DNA from: Actinoallomurus purpureus
Lineage (GTDB): Bacteria; Actinomycetota; Actinomycetes; Streptosporangiales; Streptosporangiaceae
DNA: 64,000 nucleotides
Reading direction: 5' to 3'
Assembly: GCF_024055795.1 (NCBI RefSeq)
Contig: NZ_JAMXMY010000013.1
Coordinates: 124,001-188,000, forward strand
Below the pieces are notes generated by a model that saw only the letters and a list, made by a program, of their open reading frames with translations, was not told the DNA's origin and made no database searches. The position numbers and the translations under genes were made by a program. Of the stretch, positions 37,901 through 54,353 are shown in pieces. How positions within the stretch are numbered: the stretch's first letter is position 1; the number at the start of each line of letters is the position of its first letter.

Positions 37901-37946
37901 GATGCCAACGTCGGCCCGTGTGGCGGGCGAGGGCCAAGATCATTGG

Positions 37947-37960
37947 ATTATGCTCGTAAT
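37947..37960. promoter_or_regulatory. TetR-type palindrome copy 1: ATTATGCTCGTAAT
   Basis: Imperfect copy of the ATTACGATCGTAAT palindrome, followed by GCTAAGCGG as in copy 6 (53150). It lies upstream of the OYE fragment, at a position matching that of the palindrome before the intact OYE gene. Confidence 0.6.
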
Positions 37961-38194
37961 GCTAAGCGGTCGGTCGGCGGATTGCAACTAGGCCCGTTCC
38001 TCTCGGGGGCCGTGCCCGTGGCGGACGCGGGACTGATCAGCGAGGCCCGGTCGCCGGCCGAGCTGTTGCCCTCGAAGCCTCGCGGAGCCATTCGGCTTGA
38101 GCGACGAGGAGTTGATATGGCGTGGGGTCAAGCGGTGCGCCGCCCAGGCGTAACGGGCGACCTGTGGTGCGCCCAGGTACATTCTGCAGATACG

Positions 38195-38839
38195 TCAGTC
38201 CGAGGTCCTGGCGTGCTCACGCTCGACGCCCAGTAGTGCGAGGGCGTTGTAGATGCCCTGCTCAAGGAGTTCATCGGCGAGTTGCTCGTCGGCGAGGGCT
38301 CGGGAGAGCTGCAGCGTCCCGGCCATCATGGCGTAGGCGCTGAGCGTCTTGGTGCGGACCGAGAGTGGATCATCGGGTGCCAGGCGGGCGGCGATGCCGT
38401 CGATGACAACCAGCACGGCGTCGGTGTACGCCTGCTTGGTCGGGTCTGTGCAGCGCCCGATTTCGTCGAGCAGGGCGGCGGAGGGGCAGCCGTCGTCGGG
38501 GCTGTCGCGGTGCTGGGTGGACAGGTACCACCGCACGATCTGTTCGAGCCCGGCGCGGCCGGGTGCTGCCTGCGCGACGATGTTCGCGTTCTGTGCCTGC
38601 AACTGGTCGGCGACCGCGGTGGCCACGAGGTCGTCCTTTGATGTGAAGTGGGCGTAGAAGGCGCCATTGGTCAGCCCCGCGTCCTTCATGAGTGTCGAGA
38701 TGCCCGAGCCGTCGATGCCGTCCCGCTTGAACCGGCGGCCGGCCGTCTCGATGATCCGCTGCCTGGTCGCCTGCTTGTGCTCTTTCCCGTATCGCAACGC
38801 ACGCTCCTTCGCTCGCCGGAGGAGCTGCTCGCCCTCCAC
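38195..38839 (-). CDS. TetR-family regulator, copy 1
   Basis: 214 residues from GTG 38839; TTG 38797 with GGAG six bases upstream would match the start of its paralogue at 42534. HTH: TRQRIIETAGRRFKRDGIDG, STLMKDAGLTNGAFYAHFTS, then KDDLVATAVADQL. The C-terminal domain contains DDGCPSAALLDEIGRCTDPT with two cysteines, conserved in the paralogue, as in TetR proteins that sense electrophiles or aldehydes. Its promoter carries the 24-base palindrome 38855-38878, so autorepression is likely, and the related palindromes elsewhere in the island suggest that it controls the OYE, SDR, MDR and hydrolase genes. Confidence 0.88.
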   Translation of the reverse strand: MEGEQLLRRAKERALRYGKEHKQATRQRIIETAGRRFKRDGIDGSGISTLMKDAGLTNGAFYAHFTSKDDLVATAVADQLQAQNANIVAQAAPGRAGLEQIVRWYLSTQHRDSPDDGCPSAALLDEIGRCTDPTKQAYTDAVLVVIDGIAARLAPDDPLSVRTKTLSAYAMMAGTLQLSRALADEQLADELLEQGIYNALALLGVEREHARTSD

Positions 38840-38854
38840 TGGTTCCCTCGCTGT

Positions 38855-38878
38855 ATTGTATTGCGAACGTAATCCAAT
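38855..38878. promoter_or_regulatory. TetR-type palindrome copy 2 at the TetR gene
   Basis: Core ATTGCGAACGTAAT (38860-38873) with outer arms ATTG (38855-38858) and CAAT (38875-38878), a near-perfect 24-base dyad ending 16 bases from the GTG start of TetR copy 1. Its position argues for autorepression. Confidence 0.7.
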
Positions 38879-39051
38879 GATTTCAGGGTGTCCGGCGACC
38901 GCTCGGTCGACGGCGAGGTGCCGCTGGGCAGCCTCGCGCCCCCTCTTGCGACGGGCCGTCTCGCTGCCGGCTCGGGCTCATTCCGTAGCGCGCCGCGGGC
39001 TGCCGCCTGCCGCAAGCACTCACTTGCGCCCCGCGGTCTCCCATGCATAGT

Positions 39052-39065
39052 ATTACGAACATAAT
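39052..39065. promoter_or_regulatory. TetR-type palindrome copy 3: ATTACGAACATAAT
   Basis: Followed by TCAATTG. It lies upstream of the SDR remnant (39147-39278) and the alpha/beta hydrolase at 39394, and faces copy 2 across about 175 bases in which I recognise nothing. Confidence 0.65.
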
Positions 39066-39146
39066 TCAATTGTACATCCCGGGAGGTGCCGCCCTCGCGC
39101 TCCGCAAGGCGGATTCCGAGGTGATCGGAACGAGTCGGAAGGCATG

Positions 39147-39278
39147 GAGGTCACCCGTCGCGGCGGCTGAATCTTCGTCGAGCTCGATGCAGCCGGTGAC
39201 GCGCAGGTCAACAACGTGGTCGAGCAGGTGATCGGCCAATTCGGGCGGATCCACGACCTGGTCGGCAACGCCGGCTGA
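39147..39278 (+). pseudogene. Short-chain dehydrogenase gene fragment
   Basis: After an internal stop the plus strand reads IFVELDAAGDAQVNNVVEQV then IGQFGRIHDLVGNAG and stops. This is the SDR segment from the cofactor strand to the NNAG motif (here GNAG). The Rossmann glycine motif and YxxxK are missing. The intact SDR in this window (52230) is from a different branch. Confidence 0.7.
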
Positions 39279-39393
39279 GCACACCGGGCGCCGGTGAAGA
39301 GAACTCCATCCCGCAGTCCCAGCACGTCTTTGGTGTGCTGCGCGAGCAGACCCGCGAGATGTCACGCACACCCACCAACAAGAGAAGGACATC

Positions 39394-40245
39394 ATGAGCA
39401 CGTATCTGGCAGACAAGGCCGAGGACCTCACCGTCGAGGGTCCCTCCGCGCGGTTCACCTACCGGCGGATGGGTCCGCAGGGCGGCGTCCCGCTGGTCCT
39501 GCTGAACCGCTTCCGCGGGACCATCGACTGGTGGGACCCGGAGTTCCTGGACTACCTGGCCGCCGACCACGACGTGATCGTGTTCGACAACGTCGGCGTC
39601 GGCTACACCGACGGCGAGCCGCGCGACTCCCTCGAAGGATTCGCCGAGGGAGCCATCGAGTTCATCGAGGCACTCGGCCTCGCGCAGGCCGACCTGCTCG
39701 GCTGGTCCCTTGGTGGCATCGTGGCCCAGCGTGTGGCCCTGCGACGCCCCGAACTGGTGCGCAAGCTCGTCGTGGCGGGCAGCGGCCCGGCCGGCTGGGT
39801 GCCCGATGCGCCGCCCATGAGCGAGAAGGTCCTGGGCATCATGGCAAAGCCCGATGCCGACCTGGAGGACATGCTGTACCTGTTCTACCCCGAGACGGAC
39901 ACGGCCCGCGCCTCTGGGCGCGAGCACTTCGGCCACGTCTCGACCCGGCTCGCCGCGGGTGGCCCTGCGGTCTCCGAGACGGCGGCGCAGGGCATGCTCA
40001 CCGCGGCGGGCACTCTCCTGGCAGCCCCCTTCGACCAGGTGCGGGCGGAACTGGAGGCCATCAAGCATCCCGTCCTCTACGCCAACGGCCTGAACGACGT
40101 GATGATCCCCGCCCACAACTCCTATGTCGCGATCCAGCACCTCGACAACGCCACCCTCGTGCTTTACAGCGGCGCCGGCCACGCCTTCCTCTTCCAGTAC
40201 GCCAAGGCCTTCACCAAGCAGGTGGCCGACTTCCTCGCCGCCTGA
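39394..40245 (+). CDS. Alpha/beta hydrolase (island copy 1)
   Basis: 283 residues; AAGAGAAGGA precedes ATG 39394. Alpha/beta hydrolase: VPLVLLNRFRGTIDWWDPEF (oxyanion region), DVIVFDNVGVGYTDGEP, nucleophile elbow LLGWSLGGIVAQRVAL (Ser), GLNDVMIPAHNS (Asp) and SGAGHAFLF (His). FDNVGVGxxxG and GWSLGG place it with the carboxylesterase/perhydrolase-like group common beside TetR regulators. It lies downstream of palindrome copy 3 and of the SDR remnant, which probably was once the first gene. Followed by a strong terminator. Confidence 0.87.
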   Translation: MSTYLADKAEDLTVEGPSARFTYRRMGPQGGVPLVLLNRFRGTIDWWDPEFLDYLAADHDVIVFDNVGVGYTDGEPRDSLEGFAEGAIEFIEALGLAQADLLGWSLGGIVAQRVALRRPELVRKLVVAGSGPAGWVPDAPPMSEKVLGIMAKPDADLEDMLYLFYPETDTARASGREHFGHVSTRLAAGGPAVSETAAQGMLTAAGTLLAAPFDQVRAELEAIKHPVLYANGLNDVMIPAHNSYVAIQHLDNATLVLYSGAGHAFLFQYAKAFTKQVADFLAA

Positions 40246-40287
40246 CCACGCCGACCCCGAACGATGCAGGGCGGAGGCCGGTGGTCC

Positions 40288-40335
40288 ATCGTGCAGGCGC
40301 CGCCTCACAGCCGTGTGAGGCGGCGCGTGCACGAT
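40288..40335. terminator. Long hairpin terminator
   Basis: 22-bp arms (40288-40309, 40314-40335) with one mismatch and a GCCG loop, 43 bases after the hydrolase stop codon. Both arms are GC-rich in the centre (GGCGCCGCCTCACA). The strongest stem in the window. Confidence 0.85.
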
Positions 40336-40445
40336 TGTCCGAACGCAACCCACCACGAGACCTAGCCGGCAGTCGGTGCGTCCCAGCGACGTGACCTCGC
40401 GCAGATGGCCCATGCTCAACCTGGCTGTCCTGCTCAGCCCGCGTA

Positions 40446-40540
40446 CGCCATGAGCGCCGAGCCGTCGACGCCGTCTCCCTGAACCGGCGGCCGGCCGTGC
40501 CGGTGACCCGCCGCATCGTCGCCGTGCCGTCGTGGACCCA
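40446..40540 (-). pseudogene. TetR gene fragment (HTH region)
   Basis: The DNA resembles the part of TetR copy 1 around 38690-38770: the minus strand encodes VTGTAGRRFRETASTA against IIETAGRRFKRDGIDG, and the bases GAACCGGCGGCCGGCCGT are shared. Frames are disrupted, and the remainder is missing. A decayed third TetR copy. Confidence 0.6.
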
Positions 40541-40783
40541 GGTGTAGCTAGTGAGCAGGGTCGGGGCGAATCCGAACACGGCACCGAGATCCAGGAGGAA
40601 GACAGGGTTACGCCTCCAGTGCGCTGGAGCCCGTCGGCGATCACCGACGGCGTCCAGGTCCGGCCCACGGCCGCCGACGCATGAGTACCTGCTCCACGAC
40701 GTGAAGAGTCGAGACCGCCGACAGAACCGATTCGCGATTCCGACGATGACGTCATCTCGTTCAGCTCGCCTACTTGCCTCCCC

Positions 40784-40807
40784 ATTGAATTACGGTCATA
40801 CTTTAAT
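40784..40807. promoter_or_regulatory. TetR-type palindrome copy 4 (degenerate)
   Basis: ATTGAATTACGGTCATACTT then TAAT, with core ATTACGGTCATACT (40789-40802). About 175 bases upstream of the alpha/beta hydrolase at 40983. Confidence 0.5.
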
Positions 40808-40982
40808 TGTCCACGTGATGCTGAGGGGCTCGACCGCTCAGGTTCCGACCCCCACTGCCTTTGAGCGTCGACCCCGCAAACTGCAGCCGGGAGGCGCGCA
40901 GGTAACTGCTCTGCGCCCGGCCCCTCCATGAAGGAGGGGCCGGCGCGCGCTCGCAGAAACCCCCACACCGAAGGGCACGACC

Positions 40983-41849
40983 GTGAATGATTCACAAGAG
41001 GTACGAGGCGACGTGGTGACGTCGTACAAGAACGCACCGACCCGGACCATCACCGCCGGGGGAGTGGCCTTCGCCTACCGCGAGCTCGGTCCCCAGCCCG
41101 GCGTCCCGGTGGTCTTTCTCAACCACCTCGCCGGGGTCCTCGACAACTGGGACCCTCGGGTCGTCGACGGCATCGCCGCCAAGCACCGGGTCATCACGTT
41201 CGACAACAGGGGCGTCGGCGCTTCCACCGGTTCGACGCCGCGCACCATCCAGGCGATGGCGAAGGATGCCGTCACCTTCATCCGGGCGCTCGGGTTCGAG
41301 CACGTCGATCTCCACGGCTTCTCGATGGGCGGCATGATCGCCCAGGCGATCGCACAAACCGAACCGCAACTCGTCCGCAAGCTGATCCTCACAGGTACCG
41401 GTCCTGCGGGCGGCGAGGGCATCAAGAACGTGACCCGGTTGTCCCATCTCGACACCGTCCGAGGACTGCTCACCCTTCAGGACCCGAAGCAGTTCCTCTT
41501 CTTCACCCGCACCGCGAACGGGCGTCGGGCCGGGAAGGAGTTCCTGGCTCGCCTGAAGGAGCGCACCCACGACCGGGACAAGGCGATCTCCCTCATGTCG
41601 TACAGTGCCCAGCTCAAGGCCATTCACCGCTGGGGGCTGGAGCAGTCCCACGATCTCTCCGTCATCCACCAGCCTGTGCTCGTCGCAAACGGTGAGAGCG
41701 ACAGGATGGTTCCGTCGAAGAACTCGGCCGACCTGGCGCGGCGAGTGCCGAACGGCGAGTTGGTGATCTACCCCGACGCCGGCCACGGCGGCATCTTCCA
41801 GTTCCACCGGCAGTTCGTGGAGACGGCTCTTGAGTTCCTCGAACGATAG
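40983..41849 (+). CDS. Alpha/beta hydrolase (island copy 2)
   Basis: 288 residues from GTG 40983 (GAAGGG upstream). VPVVFLNHLAGVLDNWDPRV, VITFDNRGVGASTGSTP, nucleophile LHGFSMGGMIAQAIAQ (Ser), NGESDRMVPSKNS (Asp) and PDAGHGGIFQFH (His). It is a diverged paralogue of the 39394 gene with the same FDNxGVGxSxG and loop pattern. It lies downstream of palindrome copy 4 and converges on TetR copy 2. Substrate unknown; ester or lactone hydrolysis is the usual activity. Confidence 0.87.
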   Translation: MNDSQEVRGDVVTSYKNAPTRTITAGGVAFAYRELGPQPGVPVVFLNHLAGVLDNWDPRVVDGIAAKHRVITFDNRGVGASTGSTPRTIQAMAKDAVTFIRALGFEHVDLHGFSMGGMIAQAIAQTEPQLVRKLILTGTGPAGGEGIKNVTRLSHLDTVRGLLTLQDPKQFLFFTRTANGRRAGKEFLARLKERTHDRDKAISLMSYSAQLKAIHRWGLEQSHDLSVIHQPVLVANGESDRMVPSKNSADLARRVPNGELVIYPDAGHGGIFQFHRQFVETALEFLER

Positions 41850-41961
41850 TAGGCGCGAAGTACGGTCGTCGCCTGGGCCGAGGATGGTGCCTCAGAGTCG
41901 TGGCGCTCTTCGGGCGAGCGGCTTGAGGCACCCGTTCAGTGTTGCGACCTCGCCTTCCCCC

Positions 41962-42534
41962 TCATCGCATGAACGCGAGAGCGTTCTCGATTCCCTGCTC
42001 GAGGACCTCATCGGCGAGCTTCCGGTTGGACAGGGCCCGGGACAGCTGCAACGTCCCCACCATAATGGTGAAGAGCCCGATGGCCTTGGCCCGAGCGGAC
42101 CGCGGGTCCTCGGGTGTCAGGCGAGCGGAGATCTCCTCCATGACGGCCAGCGCACCGTCGCTGTAGGCCTGCTTGGTCCCGTCCCCGCAGCGGCCTATCT
42201 CGTCGAGCAGGGCGGCGGAGGGGCATCCGAGGCCGGGGTTGTCCCGGTGCTCGGCGGACAGGTACTCGCGAATGAGGTCCTCGAGTCCCGGGCGGCCGGG
42301 CCGCAGGGTGTCGTACCTCTCGACCTGTGTGCGCAGTTCGTCGGCCACCACATGGGCGACGAGGTCGTCCTTGGACGCGAAGTGGGCGTAGAAGGCTCCG
42401 TTGGTGAGCCCCGCGTCCGACATCAGCGTGGAGATGCCCGAGCCGTCGATGCCGTCCTGCTTGAACCGGTGGCCGGCCTTCTCGATGATGCGTTGCCGCG
42501 TCACCTGCTTGTGCTCCTTGGCGTAACGCACCAC
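41962..42534 (-). CDS. TetR-family regulator, copy 2
   Basis: 190 residues, start GTG 42534 with GGAGGAA upstream. Very similar to TetR copy 1: RYAKEHKQVTRQRIIEKAGH, DGIDGSGISTLMSDAGLTNG and GCPSAALLDEIGRCGDGTKQ, including the two cysteines. The recognition helix (ISTLM.DAGLTNGAFYAHF) is the same, so both proteins should read the same operator. No clear copy of the palindrome lies at its own promoter (only CGTAAT at 42601), so the two regulators may be wired differently. Confidence 0.88.
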   Translation of the reverse strand: MVRYAKEHKQVTRQRIIEKAGHRFKQDGIDGSGISTLMSDAGLTNGAFYAHFASKDDLVAHVVADELRTQVERYDTLRPGRPGLEDLIREYLSAEHRDNPGLGCPSAALLDEIGRCGDGTKQAYSDGALAVMEEISARLTPEDPRSARAKAIGLFTIMVGTLQLSRALSNRKLADEVLEQGIENALAFMR

Positions 42535-42623
42535 GAGCTTCCTCCGTTCGCTCCGTCAGGCCGATGCCTCACACTCAAGACTAATCCATGACCTGACGCG
42601 CGTAATATCATGACCGGGCCGGC

Positions 42624-43091
42624 TCACGACCGGAGGCGAGCACCAGATCCCAGTCGGGCAGTGACGTCCCCGGGGGTGAGGGCGGAGTGCTCCGCGGAGC
42701 ACTCGACGACGACGCGGACCGGAGCGTCGCAGTCGGTATGGCGGATGTCCAGCACCGGGCCCTCGGGGTCGAGGGCGTACGTCTCGCCCCACTGGCTGAG
42801 CGCCATGAGGACGGGCCACAGGTCCCAGCCCTTGTGGGTCAGGCGGTATTCGTTGCGGGAGCGGCTGCCCGGCTCCCGGTAGGGGGCGGTCTTCAGGATG
42901 CCGGCCGAGATCAGCTTCCGGAGCCGGTCGCTGAGAACGGCTTCCGACAGGCCGATGTGGCGGTGGAAGTCGTCGAAGCGGCGGACGCCGTTGACGGCGT
43001 CACGCAGGATCAGCAACGTCCATTTCTCTCCCACCACGTCGAGCGTGCGCTGGACGGGGCAGTTCTCCGTGCTCGCTTCAAGCCACTCCAT
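42624..43091 (-). CDS. HxlR-family transcriptional regulator (divergent from thioesterase)
   Basis: 155 residues from ATG 43091 (an ATG ten codons earlier is less likely). Cysteine in the family position (STENCPVQRTLDVVGEKWTL), HTH RRFDDFHRHIGLSEAVLSDR and wing APYREPGSRSRNEYRLTHKG. The C-terminal extension has two cysteines (TDCDAPVRVVVECSAEH), a form found in about 150-residue HxlR members. Divergent from the PaaI-type thioesterase across a region with TTGACA and a palindrome (43121-43153); repression of that gene is expected. Confidence 0.87.
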   Translation of the reverse strand: MEWLEASTENCPVQRTLDVVGEKWTLLILRDAVNGVRRFDDFHRHIGLSEAVLSDRLRKLISAGILKTAPYREPGSRSRNEYRLTHKGWDLWPVLMALSQWGETYALDPEGPVLDIRHTDCDAPVRVVVECSAEHSALTPGDVTARLGSGARLRS

Positions 43092-43120
43092 GCCGCCATC
43101 GTAGAGGCCTGGCTTCGTCA

Positions 43121-43153
43121 TTGACAGTCAGGTGAACGGGAAGCTAGCTTCAC
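43121..43153 (+). promoter_or_regulatory. Thioesterase promoter with GAAGCTAGCTTC palindrome
   Basis: TTGACA (43121-43126), 18-base spacer, TAGCTT (43145-43150). The perfect 12-base palindrome GAAGCTAGCTTC (43140-43151) covers the -10, and wider arms GTGAA (43132-43136) / TTCAC (43149-43153) surround it. A probable operator for the divergent HxlR protein. Confidence 0.6.
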
Positions 43154-43183
43154 TCGTAAAAGTCAGATGGAAGGTGCCCGGTC

Positions 43184-43684
43184 GTGGGACGAACACGTAC
43201 GTATCAATGGGAAGATCCCGCGATCCTGGCGGAAGCCGCCGGACGCATGGCGGGCATCGACTTCCTGCGCGAGCTGCGTGCGGGGCGACTGCCGGGGCCG
43301 CCCATCAACTACGCCATCGACTTCACCCTGGACGAGGTGGAGCCCGGCAGGGCGGTCTTCTCCCTGACGCCGGGCGAGGAGCACTACAACCCGATCGGCA
43401 GCGTGCACGGCGGCATCTTCGCCACCCTGCTCGACTCGGCGGCGGGCTGTGCCGTCCAGTCCACCCTCCCGCAGGGCATGGCGTACGCCTCACTCGACCT
43501 GACGGTGAAATTCCTGCGACGGATCACCGTGGACACGGGTACGGTGCGCGCCATCGGCACGGTGGTCAACAAGGGCCGTCAAACCGCCCTGGCCCAGGCG
43601 CAGCTGGTCGACGGGACGGACCGTCTGCTCGCCCACGCCACCAGTAGCTGCATGCTCTTCCCGGTGCCTCCCCCGCAGGGGTGA
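43184..43684 (+). CDS. PaaI-type hotdog-fold thioesterase
   Basis: 166 residues from GTG 43184 (GGAAGG upstream). Hotdog fold with the PaaI signature YNPIGSVHGGIFATLLDSAAGCAVQ split over the Asn, His-Gly-Gly and Asp positions, then YASLDLTVKFLRRITVDTGT. Known for the family: hydrolysis of aryl- or acyl-CoA thioesters in the cytoplasm. The N-terminal 50 residues form helices, as in the YiiD/PaaI group. Controlled by the divergent HxlR regulator. Confidence 0.87.
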   Translation: MGRTRTYQWEDPAILAEAAGRMAGIDFLRELRAGRLPGPPINYAIDFTLDEVEPGRAVFSLTPGEEHYNPIGSVHGGIFATLLDSAAGCAVQSTLPQGMAYASLDLTVKFLRRITVDTGTVRAIGTVVNKGRQTALAQAQLVDGTDRLLAHATSSCMLFPVPPPQG

Positions 43685-43844
43685 GCCTCGGCGGCGACCG
43701 GTATCGGCCTGGGCCGTGATGCCGGACTCCCTCGATCTCGGCGCAGAACGCCAGAGTACGAGGTGAAACGGCTGTGGCGCACGTCGGTGGCGGCCCGTCG
43801 ACTCCTCGGGTAGCCACCGCCGTGAGCCGCAGGCGTGCCCAGGT

Positions 43845-43870
43845 GCCCGAAGGAGATGCTTCCCTCGGGC
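43845..43870. terminator. Hairpin at the end of the OYE gene
   Basis: GCCCGAAGG / CCCTCGGGC, nine-base arms with one mismatch and an 8-nt loop, 17 bases beyond the OYE stop on the minus strand. It also serves the converging thioesterase gene. Confidence 0.5.
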
Positions 43871-43886
43871 GCCGTGCTGCTCTTCG

Positions 43887-44954
43887 TCAGGCGGCGTTGG
43901 TGGGGTAGTCGGTGTAGCCGACCGCGCCGCCGCCGTAGAAGGTGGCGGGGTCGGGGGTGTTCAGGGGGGCGCCGGAGCGTACGCGCTCGACGAGGTCGGG
44001 GTTGGCGAGGGCCATGGTGCCGACGGTGACGACGTCGGCCAGACCTTCTTCGACGTCCTTGGCGCGGGTGGCGATGTCGGCGCCGGCCCGGTTGAGGATC
44101 AGCGTGGTGGGCCACAGCTTGCGGAGGGTGAAGAGGAGTTCCTCGTCGCCGCCGTGGCCGATGTGCAGGTAGGCGAGGTTGAGGGGAGCGAGGGCACGCA
44201 GGAGGTGCGGGTAGAGCTCGTGCGGGTCGCTCTCCGCGAGGTCGTTGAGCTGGAAAGGGTTGCCGGGAGAGATCCGGATGCCGGTGCGGCCGGCACCGAT
44301 CTCGCCGGCCACTGCTGAGGCGACTTCCACCGCGAAGCGGATGCGGTTGTCGAGGGAGCCCCCGTACTGGTCGGTGCGCTGGTTGGCGCTGGGGAAGAGG
44401 AACTGGTTGACCAGATAGCCGTTGGCCCCGTGGATCTCGACGCCGTCGGCGCCGGCCGCGATGGCGGCTGCGGCGGCGCGCCGGAAGTCGTCGACGGTTG
44501 CGGCGACCTCCTCGGTGGACAGCTCGCGCGGCACCGGCATCTCCTGGAGTCCGGACGGGGTGAACGTCTGGCCCGCAGGCTTGATGGCGGAGGGGGCCAC
44601 CGGCTGCCGGTGATGGGGCGTGTTGTCCGGGTGGGAGATTCGCCCGGTGTGCATCAGCTGGATGACGATGCGCCCGTCGGTCCCGTGGACGGCGTCGGTG
44701 ACCTTGCGCCAGCCGGCGATGTGTTCCTCGGTGTAGATGCCCGGGGTCACCGGGTAGCCCTGGCCGTCGGCGGAGGGCTGGGTGCCCTCGGTGATGATGA
44801 GCGCGTGCGAGGCGCGCTGGGCGTAGTACTCGGCGTTCAGCTCGGTCGGTACGCCGTCGGGGGTGGCCCGGCTGCGGGTAAGGGGGGCCATGGCGAGCCG
44901 GTGCGGTAGGGAGATCTCTCCGGCGACGGTCGGGTTCCACAGGGCGTTGAGCAT
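43887..44954 (-). CDS. Old Yellow Enzyme-family alkene reductase
   Basis: 355 residues from ATG 44954 (GAGGAA upstream; an earlier start at 45008 lacks a ribosome site). FMN TIM barrel with LAMAPLTRSRATPDGVPT, AEYYAQRASHALIITEGTQP, IQLMHTGRISHP, the substrate pair His175/Asn178 in EIHGANGYLVNQF, DQYGGSLDNRIRF and IGHGGDEELLFTLR. NADPH-dependent reduction of activated C=C bonds or nitro compounds is the family reaction. The perfect palindrome ATTACGATCGTAAT lies 150 bases upstream. This copy keeps the catalytic pair missing in 15583-16737. Confidence 0.92.
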   Translation of the reverse strand: MLNALWNPTVAGEISLPHRLAMAPLTRSRATPDGVPTELNAEYYAQRASHALIITEGTQPSADGQGYPVTPGIYTEEHIAGWRKVTDAVHGTDGRIVIQLMHTGRISHPDNTPHHRQPVAPSAIKPAGQTFTPSGLQEMPVPRELSTEEVAATVDDFRRAAAAAIAAGADGVEIHGANGYLVNQFLFPSANQRTDQYGGSLDNRIRFAVEVASAVAGEIGAGRTGIRISPGNPFQLNDLAESDPHELYPHLLRALAPLNLAYLHIGHGGDEELLFTLRKLWPTTLILNRAGADIATRAKDVEEGLADVVTVGTMALANPDLVERVRSGAPLNTPDPATFYGGGAVGYTDYPTNAA

Positions 44955-45103
44955 GGGTGATTCCTCAGGTGATGGGTGGTGGTTCCAAAAGGGGCGGGGG
45001 GCGGACACCGCGTGGACGTGGGACCCGGGCGCTTCTGCTTCCGGGTCCGACGACGCACCCGTCGTGCCCCGTCGGCTGAGCTGTCGTCCGCACGATCTAT
45101 TAA

Positions 45104-45117
45104 ATTACGATCGTAAT
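45104..45117. promoter_or_regulatory. TetR-type palindrome copy 5, perfect ATTACGATCGTAAT
   Basis: Perfect 14-base palindrome within an AT-rich 25-base island (TATTAAA...ATATTATT) in GC-rich surroundings. It lies upstream of the intact OYE gene and 80 bases beyond the end of the SpoIIE-type phosphatase gene. Identical to copy 7. Confidence 0.75.
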
Positions 45118-45196
45118 ATTATTCGCTCGGGCGGGTTGTCGCAAGGGAGGGCCCGGGTGGGTTACGAAGCCTTGCGGCGCAGCTCGTGCAAGAACC

Positions 45197-47389: not shown

Positions 47390-47484
47390 AATCAGAATCT
47401 ACCCCTGCCCTGGTCAACGGGCCGTGCCCCGCGCAGTCCGGTGGACGCGCTCGCCCACCGTCGATCAGGCCGTGAGTCAGCCGT

Positions 47485-49374
47485 TCACGGGGTGTGACCG
47501 GCGCTGCGGAGAACAGGGCGCAGGACCTCGATGACGCTGGGGTCGTCCACCGTGGAGGGGATGGGTTCGTCGTGGCCGTCGGCGATACCGCGCATCGTCT
47601 TGCGCAGGATCTTTCCCGAGCGGGTCTTGGGCAGGGCGGCAACGACCGTGACGTCCTTGAGGGAGGCGACGGCACCGATGCGCTCGCGTACGAGCTGGAC
47701 GAGTTCGGCCTCGACGTCGCTCGGTTCGCGGTCGATGCCGGCTTTCAGGACGACGAAGCCGCGCGGTACTTGTCCCTTCAGGGCGTCGGCGACGCCGATG
47801 ACGGCGCACTCGGCGACGTCGGGATGGGCGGCCAGGGCCTCTTCCATGCTGCCGGTGGACAGCCGGTGTCCGGCGACGTTGATGACGTCGTCGGTGCGGC
47901 CCATGACGAAGACGTAGCCGTCGTCGTCGATGTGGCCGCTGTCGCCGGTGAGGTAGTAGCCGGCGTAGGCGGAGAGGTAGGAGGCGACGTAGCGGTCGTC
48001 GTCCTTCCAGAGAGTGGGGAGTGCGCCGGGCGGCAGGGGGAGCCTCACGACGATCGCGCCGTCGACGCCTGCGGGCGCCGGCCCGCCCGAAGGGTTGAGG
48101 ACGCGGACGTCCCAGCCCGGCAGCGGGCGAGTGGGGGACCCGGGCTTGATGGGAGCGGCCTCGATGCCCACGGGGTTGGCGACGATGGGCCAGCCGGTCT
48201 CGGTCTGCCACCAGTGGTCGATCACCGGGATGCCCAGAAGAGCGCTCGCCCAGTGATAGGTCTCGGGGTCGAGGCGCTCGCCGGCGAGGAAGAGGTGGCG
48301 CAGGCCGGTCAGGTCGTAGTCCGCGGTGAGCGTTCCCCTCGGGTCCTCCTTACGGATGGCCCGGAAGGCGGTGGGGGCCGTGAACATGGTCTTGACCCGG
48401 TATTCGGCGGCAACGCGCCAGAACTGGCCCGCGTCCGGGGTGCCGACCGGCTTGCCTTCGTACAGGACCGTCGTGGCGCCGACCAGCAGGGGCGCGTAGA
48501 CGATGTACGAGTGCCCGACGACCCAGCCGACGTCAGAGCCGGTGAACATCGTCTCGCCTGGGCCCACGTCGTAGACGGCTCTCATTGACCAGTGGAGGGC
48601 GACCGCGTAGCCGCCGCAGTCACGCACGACTCCCTTGGGTTTTCCGGTCGTTCCGGACGTGTAGAGGATGTAGAGGGGGTCGGTGGCGGGGACGGGAACG
48701 CAGTCGGCCGGCGGCGCGGCGGCGACCAGGTCGCCCCAGTCGAGATCGTCGGGCCCCAACTCGGCCGGTTCCTGCGGGCGTTGAAGGATCACACGCTTTT
48801 CCGGCTTGTGCACCGCGAGTTCGATCGCCCGGTCGAGCAGGGGCTTGTACGCGATGACACGCTTGCCCTCGATGCCGCAGGAGGCGGAGACGACCACCTT
48901 GGGGGCCGCGTCATCGATGCGGAGGGCGAGTTCGCGCGGGGCGAACCCGCCGAAGACGACCGAGTGGATGGCGCCGATACGCGCGCAGGCCAGCATCGCG
49001 ACAGCGGCCTCGGGGACCATCGGCATGTAGATGACCACACGATCGCCGTGCCCCACGCCGAGCTGTGCGAGTGCTCCGGCGAAGGCCGCCACCTCGTTCC
49101 TCAGCTGCGCGTAGGTGTAGGTGCGCCGGGTGTCGGTCACGGGTGAGTCATAGATGAGCGCGGGCTGTTCGCCGCGGCCGGCTTCGACGTGCCGGTCGAC
49201 CGCGTTGAAACAGACGTTGAGCCGCCCGTCGGGAAACCAGCGGTAGAAGGGCGCGCCCGAGGAGTCCAGGGCGCGTTGCGGAGTGACATCCCAGTCGATG
49301 CCCTCTGCCGCCTTCAGCCAGAAGCTCTCCGGGTCTTCGGTACTGGCGCGGAAGACATCCTCGTACCTTCCCAT
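47485..49374 (-). CDS. prpE: Propionyl-CoA synthetase-like AMP-forming acyl-CoA ligase
   Basis: 629 residues; GGAG six bases before ATG 49374. ANL-family enzyme: A3 YILYTSGTTGKPKGVV, GSDVGWVVGHSYIVYAPLL, A5 WWQTETGWPI, A8 GRTDDVINVAGHRLSTGSME and the catalytic Lys motif LPKTRSGKILRKTMR. VFGGFAPRELALRIDDA and the N-terminal ACAS segment (FRASTEDPESFWLKAAEGID) are typical of PrpE rather than acetyl-CoA synthetase. It activates propionate to propionyl-CoA. The A10 lysine can be acetylated in related enzymes. No methylcitrate genes are nearby, so the connection to the island is unclear. Confidence 0.88.
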   Translation of the reverse strand: MGRYEDVFRASTEDPESFWLKAAEGIDWDVTPQRALDSSGAPFYRWFPDGRLNVCFNAVDRHVEAGRGEQPALIYDSPVTDTRRTYTYAQLRNEVAAFAGALAQLGVGHGDRVVIYMPMVPEAAVAMLACARIGAIHSVVFGGFAPRELALRIDDAAPKVVVSASCGIEGKRVIAYKPLLDRAIELAVHKPEKRVILQRPQEPAELGPDDLDWGDLVAAAPPADCVPVPATDPLYILYTSGTTGKPKGVVRDCGGYAVALHWSMRAVYDVGPGETMFTGSDVGWVVGHSYIVYAPLLVGATTVLYEGKPVGTPDAGQFWRVAAEYRVKTMFTAPTAFRAIRKEDPRGTLTADYDLTGLRHLFLAGERLDPETYHWASALLGIPVIDHWWQTETGWPIVANPVGIEAAPIKPGSPTRPLPGWDVRVLNPSGGPAPAGVDGAIVVRLPLPPGALPTLWKDDDRYVASYLSAYAGYYLTGDSGHIDDDGYVFVMGRTDDVINVAGHRLSTGSMEEALAAHPDVAECAVIGVADALKGQVPRGFVVLKAGIDREPSDVEAELVQLVRERIGAVASLKDVTVVAALPKTRSGKILRKTMRGIADGHDEPIPSTVDDPSVIEVLRPVLRSAGHTP

Positions 49375-49609
49375 CGCGCACTCCTTTGTCGCTTCGGGGT
49401 TCTGCCGCTTTGGGGCCGGACTGCCGCGGTGGTGTACAGAGCGGTGTGGGACACGAATACCGCGTGTCGGCTGACAGGGTGGAACAGGACGGCTGAGACC
49501 AGCCGCCGGTCACCGGGATCGCGGTGGTGCCGGCGGGCTGGCCGGTGAGCCTCCCGTAATCATGCCTTCGCCGAAGCCCGGCGTCGGCGGTGACGGGCCG
49601 TTCTTCCGC

Positions 49610-50521
49610 TCATGCGCCGAGATGGCGACGGAGCCACGCACCCATCTGCTGGATCGCCTGGTCCACCTCGGGTACGCGCCCCGCGCCCAGGACGAACGAA
49701 TGCTGTCCTTCGGGCATCGGGTGGACCTCGGAGGTGACCTTGAAGTCCGCGAGTCGGCGGCCGAGCTGGGCGCCGTCGTCGGCGAGGGTCTCGTACTCGC
49801 CGTAGTGGACGATCGTGGGCGGCAGGCCGGTCAGATCGGCGTTCACGAGGCTGATCTGGGGGTCGGCGAAGTCCACTGCGGGGTCCTGCAGCCATGCTCC
49901 TCGGAAGAGTTCGAGCGTGCCCCTGCTGAGCATCTTGTCCGTTTTCTCGTTCTCGTCCACCGACGCGTTTCGGAGGGTGAGGTCGGTCCACGGCGAGACG
50001 CTGACGATCGCACCCGGGGTCGCCTCGCCCTTCGCGAGTAGACGAAGCGGCAGCATCACCGCGAGGGTGCCGCCGATCGAGTGGCCCGTGCTGCCGATGT
50101 TCCGCGGCTCATAGCCCTGCGAGAGCAGCCACCGGTAGGCCGTCTCGGCGTCGTCGAGCTGCGCCGGGTAGGGATGCTCGGGCGCCAGGCGGAAGTCCAC
50201 GACGAGGGAGCGGGCGCCGGCCGCCTTCGCGATGTGGCCGGCGGTCTTACGGTCCGAGTGCATCGAGGCGGTGACCGACCCGCCGAAGTGGAAGTGGAGC
50301 AGCGCGCGGTCGGGATCGGCGCCCTCGGGGATGCACCAGATGCCGGGGACGCCGTTCGCGTCCACTTCGGCGTAGGTGACGCCTTCCGGCTCGGTCGACG
50401 CCCGATGGTTCGTCTCGACGATGTCGCGGATGATGGCCAGGTCGAGGCCCGGTGTCGACGACTTCGCGCTCACGCTTTCAAGGAACTGCGCGAACTGCTG
50501 TGCCTCTGGGCTTACTCCCAT
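49610..50521 (-). CDS. HSL-family alpha/beta hydrolase (esterase)
   Basis: 303 residues; AAGGAG before ATG 50521. Hormone-sensitive-lipase type: HFHFGGSVTAS (a form of the HGGG oxyanion motif with the first His kept), VVDFRLAPEHPYPAQLDDAE, nucleophile STGHSIGGTLAVML, DLTGLPPTIVHYGEYETLAD (Asp region) and MPEGQHSFVLG (His). Cytoplasmic esterase on short acyl or aryl esters. Divergent from the HxlR gene at 50646, which probably represses it; the promoter region with an inverted repeat lies between them. Confidence 0.88.
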   Translation of the reverse strand: MGVSPEAQQFAQFLESVSAKSSTPGLDLAIIRDIVETNHRASTEPEGVTYAEVDANGVPGIWCIPEGADPDRALLHFHFGGSVTASMHSDRKTAGHIAKAAGARSLVVDFRLAPEHPYPAQLDDAETAYRWLLSQGYEPRNIGSTGHSIGGTLAVMLPLRLLAKGEATPGAIVSVSPWTDLTLRNASVDENEKTDKMLSRGTLELFRGAWLQDPAVDFADPQISLVNADLTGLPPTIVHYGEYETLADDGAQLGRRLADFKVTSEVHPMPEGQHSFVLGAGRVPEVDQAIQQMGAWLRRHLGA

Positions 50522-50601
50522 GGTGACGCTCCTTCACAGGTCGGTGCCACGCCCACTGCTCGTGTGCAGCTAGGCCGATGTGCTGGTCACGACGCTAGTA
50601 G

Positions 50602-50638
50602 CTGAGTATATGAAAGTAAACTCAGAGTCCGTTAGAAT
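50602..50638 (+). promoter_or_regulatory. HxlR promoter with CTGAGT-N12-ACTCAG repeat
   Basis: CTGAGT (50602-50607) and ACTCAG (50620-50625) form an inverted repeat. TAGAAT (50633-50638) lies seven bases before ATG 50646, which implies a leaderless transcript. The repeat would sit at the -35 region and is a candidate autoregulatory site also controlling the divergent esterase. Confidence 0.55.
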
Positions 50639-50645
50639 CACTCTC

Positions 50646-51155
50646 ATGGATGCGTGGACCGAAGCTCTTCAGGACGCCGGCATGGACCCCCGCCTCGACC
50701 GGGACACGTCGAACTGCTCGATCGCGCGGACCCTTGAGATCGTGGGTGAGAAGTGGACGATCCTGATCCTCCGCGAGGTCTGGTACGGCTCGTCTCGCTT
50801 CAGCGACTTCGAACGCGTCCTCGGCTGTCCTCGCAACCTCCTCGCGGCGCGGCTTCGGATGCTCGTGGAGGAAGGGATCCTGACCACCGAGACCTACAAG
50901 GAGCCCGGCTCGCGGAGCCGACCGAAGTACGTGATCACCCCCAAGGGTATGGATCTGGTGCCGGCCGTGATGGGGCTCCTGCACTGGGGTGATCGTTACC
51001 GCGCCGACCCGGAGGGACCGGCCGTACTCGCGCGACACCGCGCGTGCGGCGCGCACGTCGACATCCAGATTCGCTGCGAACGAGGCCACCCTGTGCAGGC
51101 GGAAGACATCGAGAGCGTCCCCGGCCCAGCTTTTCGTATGAAGTCGGCCGAGTGA
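50646..51155 (+). CDS. HxlR-family transcriptional regulator (divergent from HSL esterase)
   Basis: 169 residues from ATG 50646. Family cysteine in RDTSNCSIARTLEIVGEKWT, HTH SSRFSDFERVLGCPRNLLAA, wing ETYKEPGSRSRPKYVITPKG. The C-terminal part has Cys residues in RACGAHVDIQIRCERGHPVQ, the same long form as the 42624-43091 regulator. Divergent from the esterase gene with an inverted repeat in the gap. The open frame extends upstream of the ATG, but the promoter lies there. Confidence 0.88.
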   Translation: MDAWTEALQDAGMDPRLDRDTSNCSIARTLEIVGEKWTILILREVWYGSSRFSDFERVLGCPRNLLAARLRMLVEEGILTTETYKEPGSRSRPKYVITPKGMDLVPAVMGLLHWGDRYRADPEGPAVLARHRACGAHVDIQIRCERGHPVQAEDIESVPGPAFRMKSAE

Positions 51156-51256
51156 GCTGAGCGCGGCTGCGCCAGGCGATCGGCGCGAACTCCTCTGTCA
51201 GACTTTCGGGGTGCGCTCACTCCGTCTGGCTCCGGGCCGCCTCCTCGGTTCGGGCC

Positions 51257-52102
51257 TCAGATCGCGACTGGGGCGTCGGCCGGAGCATCCCCCGCGGCAA
51301 GGCCGGCAGCCGGGCCATCGGCCTTGCGCTGCCGGGGCATCAGGAACGCCAGGGCCGCCGCCAGGGCGACCGCACCCGCCCCGACCCAGAGCGCCGGGAC
51401 CAGCCCGTCCACGAACAGAGAGGCGGACCCGTAGCCGCCCTGGGCGGAGAAGACCGCAGCCAGCGACGCGACGCCGATGGCGCCGCCGACCTCGCGGATC
51501 GCGTTGTTGGCGCCGGAGGCGATGCCCTGCTCCTCCGGGCGGACCGTGCTCATGACGAGGTTCGCGCTGGGGGCGAAGAACATCCCCATGCCGATTCCGC
51601 AGACGATCAGCGCAGGCAGCAGAGCGGTGTACGACACCTGCGGCTCGACGGCCAGCGCCCAGAGCCCCAGGCCCACCGCGTTCAGGGCCATGCCCACCGT
51701 GACGACCGGACCGCCGCCGATGCGGTCGGACAGTGCCCCGGCCAGCGGCCCGGCGATCATGGGCATGGCGGTCCAGGGCAGCATCCGCAGGCCGGCTTCC
51801 ATCGGTGAGTAGCCGCCGACGGTCTGCAGGTACTGGCTGAGCAGGAAGATCGCCCCGAACATCCCCAGGAACATCAGCAGGCTGGCGGCGTTGATGGCGC
51901 TGAAGGAGCGGTGGCGGAAGATACGCATCGGCAGCATCGGCAGCATCGGGTGCTCGGCGCGCAGCTCGTAGCGGACGAAGCCGACGAGCAGGACCGTACC
52001 AGCGAAGAAACCGCCCAGAACCGGGGTGCTGGTCCAGCCGTCGGCAACCACGGCCCAGACGGCGCTGCCGCGCCGAGCCGGTTGCTCGCGGTGCTGTTTC
52101 AT
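51257..52102 (-). pseudogene. 5'-truncated DHA2-type MFS transporter
   Basis: 281 codons. The visible part matches the C-terminal half of 14-helix drug:H+ antiporters, from DGWTSTPVLGGFFAGTVLL through RIFRHRSFSAINAASLLMFL, PLAGALSDRIGGGPVVTVGM and VRPEEQGIASGANNAIREVG to AFLMPRQRKADG. Full-length proteins have about 480-510 residues, so the N-terminal helices with the antiporter motifs A and C are gone. The first 20 residues (MKQHREQPARRGSAVWAVVA) are unlike the family and mark the break. The 14-bp inverted repeat at 52145-52197 lies at the truncation point. It might still be translated but would not transport. Confidence 0.75.
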
Positions 52103-52144
52103 GACGTTCCCCGGGCAGACGTACTCGGCGATTGATCAATGGAT

Positions 52145-52197
52145 GTGGATGCCGGTGCGCGACGGCGCGGCGTGCGATACCGGGCACCGGCATCCAC
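52145..52197. repeat. 14-bp perfect inverted repeat flanking 25 bases
   Basis: GTGGATGCCGGTGC (52145-52158) and GCACCGGCATCCAC (52184-52197). It lies between the truncated MFS gene and the SDR. It could be a terminator for the SDR, a transposon-end relic or a regulator site; no target-site duplication was seen. Confidence 0.7.
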
Positions 52198-52229
52198 GGG
52201 CTCGGTGCGGATTCCTGGGTGGCTGACCC

Positions 52230-52928
52230 TCAGGGGAGCTGTGGGTAGAGCACTGAGACGCCTGCGGCCAGCGCGGCCTGCGCCTGGCGGGCGGCGTTGT
52301 CCGCGAGGATCTCGTAGGCGCCGGCGGCGATGCCGTCGACGGCGATCCGGGCGATGTCGGCGGGCTCGGACTTGGCCGCGTCGACTGCCCGGGTCATGTC
52401 GGTGTCCATGTAGCCGACGTGCAGGCCGGCCACTCGGATGCCCTGGTCGGAGAGCTGCACGCGCAGGGCGTTGGTGAGCGACCACTCCGCTGACTTGGCG
52501 GCGCAGTAGGCGCCGATCTCCGGGAAGCTGACCCAGGACAGGCCGGACAGGACGTTCAGGATCGCCCCGCCGCCGTTGGCCGCGATCTGGGGCGCGAAGC
52601 TCCGGACCACCGAGAGGGTGCCGAAGTAGTGGGTGTCCATCTCCAGTCGGATGTCGTCCAGACCGGCTGCGAGCAGGTCGGCGCCGGTGGCTGACCCCGC
52701 GTTGTTGATCAGGACGGTCACATCGCCGGTGGCCTCGGCGGCGGCCGCGACGGAGGCGGGGTCGGTGATGTCGAGCGCGATCGGCTTGGCGCCGGAGAGG
52801 TCGACCTGGTCGGGGTTGCGGGCGCCGGCGTAGACGGTGGCGCCGCGGCTGAGCAGTTCAGCGGCGAGGGCCCGGCCGAAGCCCCGGTTGGCTCCGGTGA
52901 CAAGGGCGGTGCTGGTGGAGAGGTCCAT
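52230..52928 (-). CDS. Short-chain dehydrogenase/reductase
   Basis: 232 residues; AGGAACT before ATG 52928. Classical SDR: TGANRGFGRALAAELLSRGA (cofactor TGxxxGxG), LDITDPASVAAAAEAT, INNAGSATGADLL (NNAG), catalytic Ser in NVLSGLSWVSFPEIGAYCAA with YxxxK as YCAAK, and GLHVGYMDTDMTRAV. Reduction of carbonyl groups with NAD(P)H is expected. Palindrome copy 6 lies 220 bases upstream, placing it in the TetR regulon. The last residues (VSVLYPQLP) are typical of this branch. Confidence 0.9.
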   Translation of the reverse strand: MDLSTSTALVTGANRGFGRALAAELLSRGATVYAGARNPDQVDLSGAKPIALDITDPASVAAAAEATGDVTVLINNAGSATGADLLAAGLDDIRLEMDTHYFGTLSVVRSFAPQIAANGGGAILNVLSGLSWVSFPEIGAYCAAKSAEWSLTNALRVQLSDQGIRVAGLHVGYMDTDMTRAVDAAKSEPADIARIAVDGIAAGAYEILADNAARQAQAALAAGVSVLYPQLP

Positions 52929-53149
52929 GGAGAGTTCCTGGTGAAGTAGGCAAGGCGTGTTGATCGGATCGACCGCGCCGCCGGTGTTCCCGATCAGCCG
53001 CAGGGCGGTGGTCGGGCCGGTGTGGTGACCGTCGGGTGCGGGCCAGGCGGTGGGGCCGGGCCGGAAGGAAGATCAGGCTGCTGGTGGCGTGGCCTGTCCA
53101 TGAGAACTTGTCGGCCGAGTCGTCGTCAGTGAGGAGACGCGGTCATTAA

Positions 53150-53163
53150 ATTATAACCATAAT
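53150..53163. promoter_or_regulatory. TetR-type palindrome copy 6: ATTATAACCATAAT
   Basis: Degenerate centre, intact ATTAT/ATAAT arms, flanks CATTA and ACTAAGCGG as in copy 1. It lies in the 301-base gap between the SDR and MDR genes; the rest of this gap shows nothing recognisable. Confidence 0.6.
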
Positions 53164-53229
53164 ACTAAGCGGGTGTGCGAGGGCCTGCCGCGCGCATGGC
53201 GGGCCCTCGCGCAGTCCGGTGAAGCAGGC

Positions 53230-54246
53230 TCAGAGCTTGACGATCATCTTTCCGACGTTCTCGCCTCGCATCAACGCGAGGAAGGCGTCCAGGGTGTTGT
53301 CGAGGCCGTCCCTCACGGTTTCGCGGTAGTGGAGCTTGCCCTCGGCGAGCCAGCCGCCGACCTCTCGTACGAAGTCCGGCTGGAGGTCCAGCTCTTCGCT
53401 GAACATGAACGACAGGATGTCCGAACGCGTCACTGACAGGTTCCACAGGTTGCGCGGCCCCACGACCTTCTCGTCGTTGTACTGGGAGACCATCCCGCTC
53501 AGGACGATCCGTGCGTGCAGCCTGAGCGCGCCGATCGCCGCCTCCAGATGCTCGCCCCCGACATTGTCGAAGAAGACGTCGATGCCGTCCGGCGCCGCCT
53601 GTGCCAGCTGCTCGGCGACCGGCCCGTTCTTGTAGCTGAACGCCGCGTCGAAACCGTACTCCTCGACCAGCAGCTTGACCTTCTCGTCCGAGCCCGCGCT
53701 GCCGATTACCCGTCCGGCGCCCTTCAGCTTGGCGATCTGGCCGGCCTGGCTGCCGACGGCGCCGGCCGCGCCGGAGACGAAGACCGTGTCGCCCTCCTTG
53801 ATCTTCGCGAACCGCTCAAGCCCGATGTACGCGGTGAGGCCGGTGACGCCGAGCACGCCCAGGTAGGCGGTGAGCGGCGCCAGATTCGGGTCCACCTTCT
53901 GGGCGGTCACCGCGTCGATGACCGCGTAGTCGCGCCAGCCGAGGACGTGCAGCACGTGGTCGCCGGGCGCGAAGCCCTCGGCGTTGGACGCCAGGACGCG
54001 GCCGACCGCGGGGCCGTCCATCGGCGCGCCCACCTCGTACGGCTCGATGTAGGACTTCTTGTCGCTCATCCGGCCGCGCATGTAGGGGTCGACTGAGAGG
54101 TACTCGTTGGCGACCAGGAGCTGCCCCGGGCCGGGCGTGGGGATGTCCACCTCACGCAGCGAGAAGTCGGACGCCACCGGCCAGCCCTCTGGGCGGGCGT
54201 CCAGGTGCCATGCGCGTGCGGTGGTGGGCAGGGTCTGCTCGGACAT
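53230..54246 (-). CDS. NADP-dependent MDR oxidoreductase (2-alkenal/leukotriene B4 reductase type)
   Basis: 338 residues from ATG 54246 (AAGGGA upstream; a 30-codon upstream extension crosses the promoter). Family landmarks of YncB/CurA-type alkenal reductases: DFSLREVDIPTPGPGQLLVA, EYLSVDPYMRGRMSDKKSY, VSGAAGAVGSQAGQIAKLKG, YGFDAAFSYKNGPVAEQLAQ and DVFFDNVGGEHLEAAI. It reduces the double bond of alpha,beta-unsaturated aldehydes or ketones with NADPH. Perfect palindrome copy 7 lies about 95 bases upstream, so this is a strong candidate target of the TetR proteins. Confidence 0.92.
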   Translation of the reverse strand: MSEQTLPTTARAWHLDARPEGWPVASDFSLREVDIPTPGPGQLLVANEYLSVDPYMRGRMSDKKSYIEPYEVGAPMDGPAVGRVLASNAEGFAPGDHVLHVLGWRDYAVIDAVTAQKVDPNLAPLTAYLGVLGVTGLTAYIGLERFAKIKEGDTVFVSGAAGAVGSQAGQIAKLKGAGRVIGSAGSDEKVKLLVEEYGFDAAFSYKNGPVAEQLAQAAPDGIDVFFDNVGGEHLEAAIGALRLHARIVLSGMVSQYNDEKVVGPRNLWNLSVTRSDILSFMFSEELDLQPDFVREVGGWLAEGKLHYRETVRDGLDNTLDAFLALMRGENVGKMIVKL

Positions 54247-54339
54247 GTGGATCAAGTCCCTTCGGTGGGGGGGGGTGGTGCTCGGATGTGTCGTGGCAAG
54301 CCCGCCGTCCGCGCTCTGTCCGGCTCTCGGGCTCATTGA

Positions 54340-54353
54340 ATTACGATCGTAAT
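54340..54353. promoter_or_regulatory. TetR-type palindrome copy 7, perfect ATTACGATCGTAAT
   Basis: Identical to copy 5. Flanks CATTGA and CTTAAAC. It lies upstream of the alkenal reductase gene, within the probable promoter. Confidence 0.75.

Follow-up and report, generated by a model that had tools for sequence, protein, structure and literature searches.

The occurrence of a palindromic sequence was analysed in a 64-kb stretch of the Actinoallomurus purpureus genome, which is referred to below as the window. Eight copies of the palindrome were located in a cluster that encodes two sister TetR-type proteins (TetR1 and TetR2), an old yellow enzyme (OYE), a zinc-type quinone/alcohol oxidoreductase (QOR), a short-chain dehydrogenase/reductase (SDR), a CurA-like alkenal/curcumin reductase and two alpha/beta hydrolases (ABH1 and ABH2). 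These copies very probably act as the operators of a TetR1/TetR2 regulon, a statement which leaves the inducer aside. The local TetR regulon put forward in the original prediction, made from the window alone, is strongly supported by the confinement of the 24-bp consensus to the cluster and by sites lying before the orthologous genes of other actinomycetes. The sites, their conservation, the target set and the overlap with promoter-like hexamers are read directly from the DNA.

Operator sites and their distribution

Seven copies of a 14-bp palindrome had been reported at 37947, 38860, 39052, 40789, 45104, 53150 and 54340, and all were found at these positions. The copies at 45104 and 54340 are identical to each other and perfect, those at 37947, 38860 and 39052 carry two mismatches each to the perfect 14-mer, that at 40789 carries three, and that at 53150, the most degenerate, carries four. 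A search of the window with up to three mismatches gave seven matches against 0.35 expected from shuffles; six of these were the reported sites and the remaining one, at 30639, is a non-member. The reported list stood as far as it went but missed an eighth, weaker site at 42588-42611 before TetR2. Similarly, the 14-bp palindrome was confirmed as the core but not as the full conserved element, as conservation spans about 24 bp. The profile of 97 distinct copies showed T on the left or A on the right at the fourth base outside the edge in 93%, with weaker preferences around it. As the conservation continues past the edges of the 14-mer, the operator was treated as the 24-bp sequence WTWRNATTAYGNNCRTAATNYWAW, and its consensus is a palindrome of about 24 bp, WTWRN-ATTAYGNNCRTAAT-NYWAW. 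A 24-bp matrix was built from 90 unique 24-mers of TetR2 loci in other genomes, none being taken from the window. Its scan of the 64 kb revealed exactly eight places, seven at 34.1-47.5 bits and the site at 42588-42611 (core at 42593) at 17.4 bits, while no other position of the window reached 4 bits.

The whole-genome motif scan suggested with the original prediction was carried out with the 24-bp consensus at up to three mismatches. It gave seven places in the 9,248,008-base genome, all of them in the window, and the backward-read pattern used as control gave two. The possibility that the motif is no commoner near these genes than elsewhere is not borne out, the 24-bp consensus being confined to the cluster. 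The shorter 14-mer with up to two mismatches occurred at nine places in the genome, five of them in the window, including both perfect copies.

The distribution in other genomes was analysed through a TetR2 search of species genomes, from which the best 80 of 351 relatives' loci were used; these are mostly from Streptomyces and also from Nonomuraea, Frankia, Lentzea, Saccharothrix, Actinoplanes and others. The palindrome with up to two mismatches was present in 102 copies in 53 of the 80 loci, compared to 0, 0, 1, 1, 9 and 0 copies for six permuted palindromes. Matrix sites of at least 14 bits numbered 312, against 1 in the reversed loci and 0 in Markov-random loci, and a site of at least 12 bits was found in 79 of the 80. 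Between different promoters the conservation is concentrated in the 24-mer. Among the loci around TetR2 relatives in the organism's own family (L104-L124), 19 of 21 have a matrix site of at least 14 bits. Eight Streptomyces genomes contained 33 consensus sites and none for the backward control; by coordinates, 28 of these 33 lie within a fetched TetR locus or at most 11 kb from one. A search with the motif alone at up to one mismatch matched 10 of 394 genomes, our own included, and 9 of the 14 loci fetched from the others include, within 3 kb, a TetR, SDR or hydrolase relative. In genome G344 the sites are clustered near one TetR locus (L061) and none lies near another (L059). In genomes G341, G344 and G345 one further operator sequence, identical in all three, lies on the chromosome outside the cluster and may precede a third paralogue.

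Several points weigh against the TetR1/TetR2 regulon. The 80 loci were picked for holding a relative of TetR2 and also supplied the training sites of the matrix, so the in-locus counts are not independent. The consensus searches of the own genome and of eight others and the motif-first search of 394 genomes are less circular, though their consensus was still read from the same sites. A few overlapping loci were left unmerged in the target-gene and TetR-upstream counts. Judged from coordinates, 5 of the 33 sites in the eight Streptomyces genomes lie away from TetR loci, and 5 of the 14 motif-alone loci have no TetR, SDR or hydrolase relative within 3 kb. For the 14-mer at up to one mismatch in the own family (L125-L138), 12 of 14 loci have no TetR relative in the 3 kb fetched, two of the 12 carrying perfect 14-mers, and only 3 of the 11 family genomes with a TetR2 relative have the 14-mer at this stringency. 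Of 309 sites, 66 are located within genes as called mechanically, and 42 are without a called gene at distances of up to 400 bp.

Target genes and promoter overlap

A called gene of the loci was counted as carrying a site if one lay within 300 bp upstream of its called start or at most 40 bp inside it, and only genes with enough upstream sequence were considered. A site was found for 24/31 OYE, 14/20 ABH1, 44/72 ABH2, 16/38 QOR and 9/18 SDR relatives, and also for the HSL-type esterase (6/25) and the CurA-like reductase (1/2, only two being counted). The background was 82 of 990 other called genes, a figure that may include genes divergent from true targets, as the gene caller is crude. Every one of the 24 OYE relatives at or above 85% identity has a site, as opposed to none of the 7 at or below 82%, and the 11 QOR relatives at or above 85% all have one. 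Possible additional targets in the relatives, named from the Pfam match of one example each, are another SDR (12 genes), an enoyl-CoA hydratase (8), an amidase (5) and a SnoaL-like protein (4).

The sites which had been placed before an OYE, an SDR, an alkenal reductase, alpha/beta hydrolases and a TetR gene are indeed found there, as O6, O7, O8, O3 with O4, and O2, respectively. The strongest site, O6 (45099-45122, minus strand; 47.5 bits, perfect core), precedes the OYE gene (43887-44957, minus; Pfam Oxidored_FMN, E=8.1e-77), whose product is 44% identical to Escherichia coli NemA. O8 (54335-54358, minus; 43.0 bits, perfect core) precedes the CurA-like gene (53230-54246, minus; NCBIfam CurcmRedCuraProt, 348 bits, below the cut-off of 440), and O7 (53145-53168, minus; 35.7 bits) the SDR gene (52230-52928, minus; Pfam adh_short, E=3.6e-34; NCBIfam PRK08264.1-5 above cut-off). 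On the plus strand, O3 (39047-39070; 42.4 bits) stands before ABH1 (39394-40245; Pfam Abhydrolase_1, E=1.3e-21) and O4 (40784-40807; 37.3 bits) before ABH2 (40983-41849; Abhydrolase_1, E=2.1e-29). The two regulator genes follow O2 (38855-38878, minus; 35.5 bits), before TetR1, and the weak O5 (42588-42611, minus), before TetR2.

O1 (37942-37965, minus; 34.1 bits) adds a target that the original prediction did not name. The relics of OYE and SDR genes described there are both present, but the site at 37947 does not belong with the OYE relic, as had been proposed. It most likely serves as operator for the intact QOR gene (36643-37659, minus; Pfam ADH_zinc_N_2, E=8.8e-36), because in the Streptomyces locus L035 QOR is preceded by the same operator and by a leader that matches at 88.8% over 347 columns, OYE fragment included; this gene is most likely a member of the regulon. 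The OYE fragment (37777-37886, minus) lies inside the QOR leader and is 81% identical to the intact OYE gene over 114 columns. The SDR fragment (39171-39275, plus; adh_short, E=4e-4, 20.3 bits, below the cut-off of 26.6) lies between O3 and ABH1, and the stretch around it is 86% identical in L035 over 364 columns. As both leaders are common to the window and L035, both relics sit in the leaders of intact genes, shared with a Streptomyces.

The position of the operators relative to the promoters was then considered, with hexamers read from the consensus and, for the window, by eye. A site was taken as a promoter context if it scored 30 bits or more and only one labelled gene lay within 300 bp of it. 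Several enzyme promoters, read towards the gene, show a TTGC-type -35 box, a spacer of 17-18 bp and a TANNAT -10 box at the left edge of the operator. A recurring TTG offset that places the -10 box on the operator was observed for QOR (9/11), OYE (11/23) and SDR (5/5, at -22 or -23). For ABH2 the TTG is shifted to offset -10 in 17 of 24 contexts, which puts the -10 box in the right half of the operator. On the opposite strand only the TTG inside the operator recurs. In the window, the left-edge form is followed by OYE (TTGCGA-17-TAATAT), QOR (TTGCAA-17-TAGCAT, overlapped by O1), the CurA-like gene (TTGCTG-18-TAAGAT) and ABH1 (TTGCGC-18-TAGTAT), and the right-half form by ABH2 (-35 TTGCCT, spacer 17, -10 CATACT inside the right half); these are likely promoters. 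For SDR and TetR1 no clear -35 box could be seen by eye in the window. As a point against the regulon, no recurrent -35-like hexamer was found upstream of the operator for ABH1 (4 contexts), TetR1, TetR2 and the CurA-like gene (2 contexts). As the site overlaps the likely -10 box, a repressor bound to it would likely block RNA polymerase sterically.

Among the neighbouring genes, a short open reading frame (ORF) at 54436-54765 (plus) is divergent from the CurA-like gene and encodes a partial metallo-beta-lactamase fold (Lactamase_B, E=8e-8, profile positions 41-138 of 196). The MFS transporter ORF at 51257-52102 matches the MFS_1 profile at 148-346 of 347 only and seems to be without its first half; matching DNA is present in locus L041.

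The twin TetR proteins, their signal and alternative readings

TetR1 (38195-38797, minus; TetR_N, E=1.4e-8) probably starts at a TTG codon at 38797 by alignment, the longest ORF extending to 38839, and TetR2 (41962-42531, minus; E=4.3e-8) probably at a GTG codon at 42531. Their TetR_N (PF00440) scores are 34.8 and 33.3 bits, respectively, against a gathering score of 24. The description of two related proteins with a common recognition helix and two common cysteines proved correct, the helix being LTNGAFYAHF and the overall identity 67%. Among the 33 aligned proteins this helix differs in one only, by a single A-to-T change in L101, and the 32 proteins aligned with TetR2 are 66-89% identical to it. 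Within the 80 loci, a site lies within 250 bp upstream of 80/87 TetR2-like and 27/34 TetR1-like genes; for the TetR2-like genes the nearest site is mostly 60-66 bp upstream, 66 bp being the commonest distance. Five loci (L025, L028, L035, L037 and L038) have two overlapping low-scoring operator copies, 14 bp apart, upstream of TetR2. The same type of operator was also seen in L136, L148 and L160 beside TetR genes of only 29-37% identity, with an SDR gene adjoining in L136 and L148, suggesting an older TetR-SDR system.

We infer the binding by TetR1 and TetR2, the repression, the shared use of the operators and the inducer from these patterns. In the proposed mechanism, two sister repressors of the TetR superfamily, TetR1 and TetR2, would both recognise the palindrome. 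Each target gene, namely OYE, QOR, SDR, the CurA-like reductase, the two hydrolases and both tetR genes, would be controlled by its own copy, mostly over the likely -10 box, where a bound dimer would keep RNA polymerase away. The inducer is perhaps a reactive carbonyl or alkene such as a quinone, enal or enone, which may act via the ligand pocket and/or the invariant Cys103, and release of the repressor would switch on the enzymes that reduce or hydrolyse it. The operator of tetR2 is the weakest, and the median operator strength is 23.6 bits for TetR2-like genes compared to 37.0 for TetR1-like genes and 32.9-37.8 for the enzymes; due to these lower scores, an early release of tetR2 is predicted.

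The nature of the signal was examined through the AlphaFold model of TetR2, which has a predicted local distance difference test (pLDDT) value of 90.8. The leading Foldseek matches were PDB 2fd5, PA2196 and E. coli NemR. The NemR chain 4yze_A takes fold rank 3 (E=4.4e-6, template modelling score (TM) 0.77), with 2fd5 and PA2196 ranking higher. The TetR regulator of Pseudomonas aeruginosa in 2fd5, which we take to be PA3133, is the best relative in both sequence and fold and shares a GCP motif. PA2196 (4l62 and 3rd3) occupies ranks 2 and 4 at only 20% identity. The available part of one study lists PA2196 and PA3133 among the P. aeruginosa genes induced by a bromofuranone (PMC3447867). Cys103 is invariant in all 33 aligned proteins and aligns with NemR Cys106 in two alignments, and Cys115 is kept in 30 of the 33 and has no NemR cysteine aligned with it. 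According to the part seen of a study on a NemR-based sensor protein, the sulfenamide was not found in that protein (PMC8748444).

Two results tell against a cysteine switch. The GC motif around the cysteine is also present in 2fd5 and other TetR chains and is not specific, so that Cys103 is weak evidence for electrophile sensing, and no counterpart of NemR Lys175 was found in the TetR2 alignment, where it falls in a gap. In another reading of the same regulon, the inducer is no reactive electrophile modifying cysteine but a specific compound that binds in the TetR pocket, either a signal or a substrate that these enzymes degrade, such as a metabolite of aromatic, terpenoid or polyketide type. 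The cluster would then be a catabolic or resistance island; this comes close to an even prospect. It would suit the presence of several hydrolases among the targets, the sites of the relatives before enoyl-CoA hydratase, amidase and SnoaL-type genes, which fit catabolism, and the cysteine and lysine results above. It fits less well with the core set of OYE, QOR, CurA-like reductase and SDR, which resembles a set for detoxification of alkenes and carbonyls, and with the occurrence of NemR among the nearest folds. Electrophile sensing is plausible, being favoured by the NemR-like fold and by the NemA-like OYE, and we infer that it stands about even with a non-reactive ligand. In its complete form, the proposal is an actinobacterial response to enals, enones and quinones, undescribed so far and carried on a family-hopping island, in which twin cysteine-bearing TetR proteins release dispersed single-gene promoters (the operator containing the -10 box) for OYE, quinone and alkenal reductases, SDR and hydrolases, and graded operator strengths order the induction. 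This full picture is offered tentatively, its probability being put somewhat below one half.

A further reading concerns the division of labour between the twins. On this view the same operators serve both a principal repressor and a weakly autoregulated partner that senses a different ligand. The different medians of their own operators are consistent with such a split, as are the contents of the 80 loci, of which 47 have only the TetR2 type and 33 have both within the stretches fetched, while the identical recognition helix argues against it. Split roles are a serious possibility, though judged a little less probable than not.

Binding of the palindrome by another regulator, of HxlR type or unknown, with the TetR proteins as mere neighbours, is very improbable. 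An HxlR-type gene (42624-43121) does adjoin TetR2, divergent from a 4HBT thioesterase ORF (43184-43684), and the many own-family 14-mer loci lacking a TetR relative in the 3 kb fetched could be explained in this way. None of the eight sites lies before this gene or before the second HxlR-type gene of the window (50580-51155). Only 1 of 21 HxlR relatives has a site, and HxlR was rejected as the binder on this count. The operator's presence beside the TetR genes of lower identity in L136, L148 and L160, and the absence of any site of 10 bits at the ten TetR loci of the own genome that come next in similarity, also speak against it. TetR is the best-fitting regulator of the palindrome, HxlR being the sole rival tested. 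Lastly, an origin of the sites by chance or as a mobile repeat can practically be dismissed: the AT-rich islands around the sites and the apparently horizontal acquisition of the cluster would agree with it, but the shuffle expectation and the permuted-palindrome counts rule out chance, and conservation between promoters is concentrated in a 24-mer whose consensus is restricted to the cluster in the own genome.

Comparison with known systems, origin and significance

Regulons in which a TetR protein acts on several operators are already known, and the cluster appears to be an undescribed member of this kind. The nearest comparison is the NemR system of E. coli (nemRA-gloA), an electrophile and bleach response, with which it has in common a TetR-family repressor, a likely OYE target, the third-ranked fold and a cysteine at the position of Cys106. 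TetR2 is only 27% identical to NemR in the alignment, and Lys175 is not kept. The genes nemR, nemA and gloA lie side by side, compared to eight separate operators and two repressors here, and no glyoxalase was identified among the operator-bearing genes. Background on NemR is given in the seen part of a paper on glyoxal signalling (PMC12274486). In Streptomyces avermitilis, the adjacent twins SAV576 and SAV577 are also two similar TetR regulators, while the target named in the accessible text is SAV575, a cytochrome P450/NADPH-ferrihemoprotein gene (PMC4051647). SAV151 of the same species is a TetR protein that represses dehydrogenase and hydrolase genes, but the binding sequences tabulated in the consulted part of that paper differ from the palindrome, and it was rejected as the same system (PMC10933834). 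CurR (NCBIfam NF058643) with CurA likewise combines a TetR protein and a CurA-like reductase, and was rejected on scores of 30.1 bits for TetR1 and 25.4 for TetR2 against a cut-off of 300, and of 348 against 440 for the CurA-like protein. The gamma-butyrolactone receptor profile (ScbR, NCBIfam NF041196) gave 61 and 55.5 bits against a cut-off of 150, in the N-terminal part only.

The literature was also searched for the palindrome itself. The seven operators tabled in the part seen of a paper on TetR genome context differ from it (PMC3511530), and no link was found in the part seen of a paper on LmbU targets (PMC10763038). In a second paper with a match for PA3133, the match is solely PA3133.1, a non-coding RNA. 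The 14-mer was not found in the open-licence literature searched, which excludes subscription papers, and among the matches listed there no description of the system was found, including under the topics of CurR/CurA, ene-reductase regulons and PA2196.

With respect to origin, the G+C content of the host DNA is 68.5%. None of seven congeners has a TetR2 relative at E<=1e-25, and in the own family relatives at E<=1e-35 occur in just 11 of 341 genomes, the top one outside the own genome being 74% identical. TetR2 relatives of Streptomyces reach 88-89% identity. L035 matches 3.9 kb of the window at 92% DNA identity, and in L041 much of 36603-54268 is present and collinear at 84-90%, the parts that it lacks being those around ABH1 and around HxlR, OYE and the gene at 45197-47389. 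Horizontal transfer of the cluster is likely from these comparisons. Among plasmids, 23 records matched; the eight listed each cover 11% of the 9.4-kb query in pieces of about 1 kb at 80-83% identity, and none covers 80%.

A conserved group of ene- and carbonyl-reductases now has a well-defined operator, two likely repressors and a list of targets, so that inducers are directly testable. If confirmed, the system would provide Streptomyces with a compact natural pair of sensor and promoter, and would exemplify a regulon that moves together with its dispersed operators. Because the same set of genes and operators recurs in other actinomycetes, the regulatory unit appears to be genuine and shared, and it may respond to reactive chemicals.

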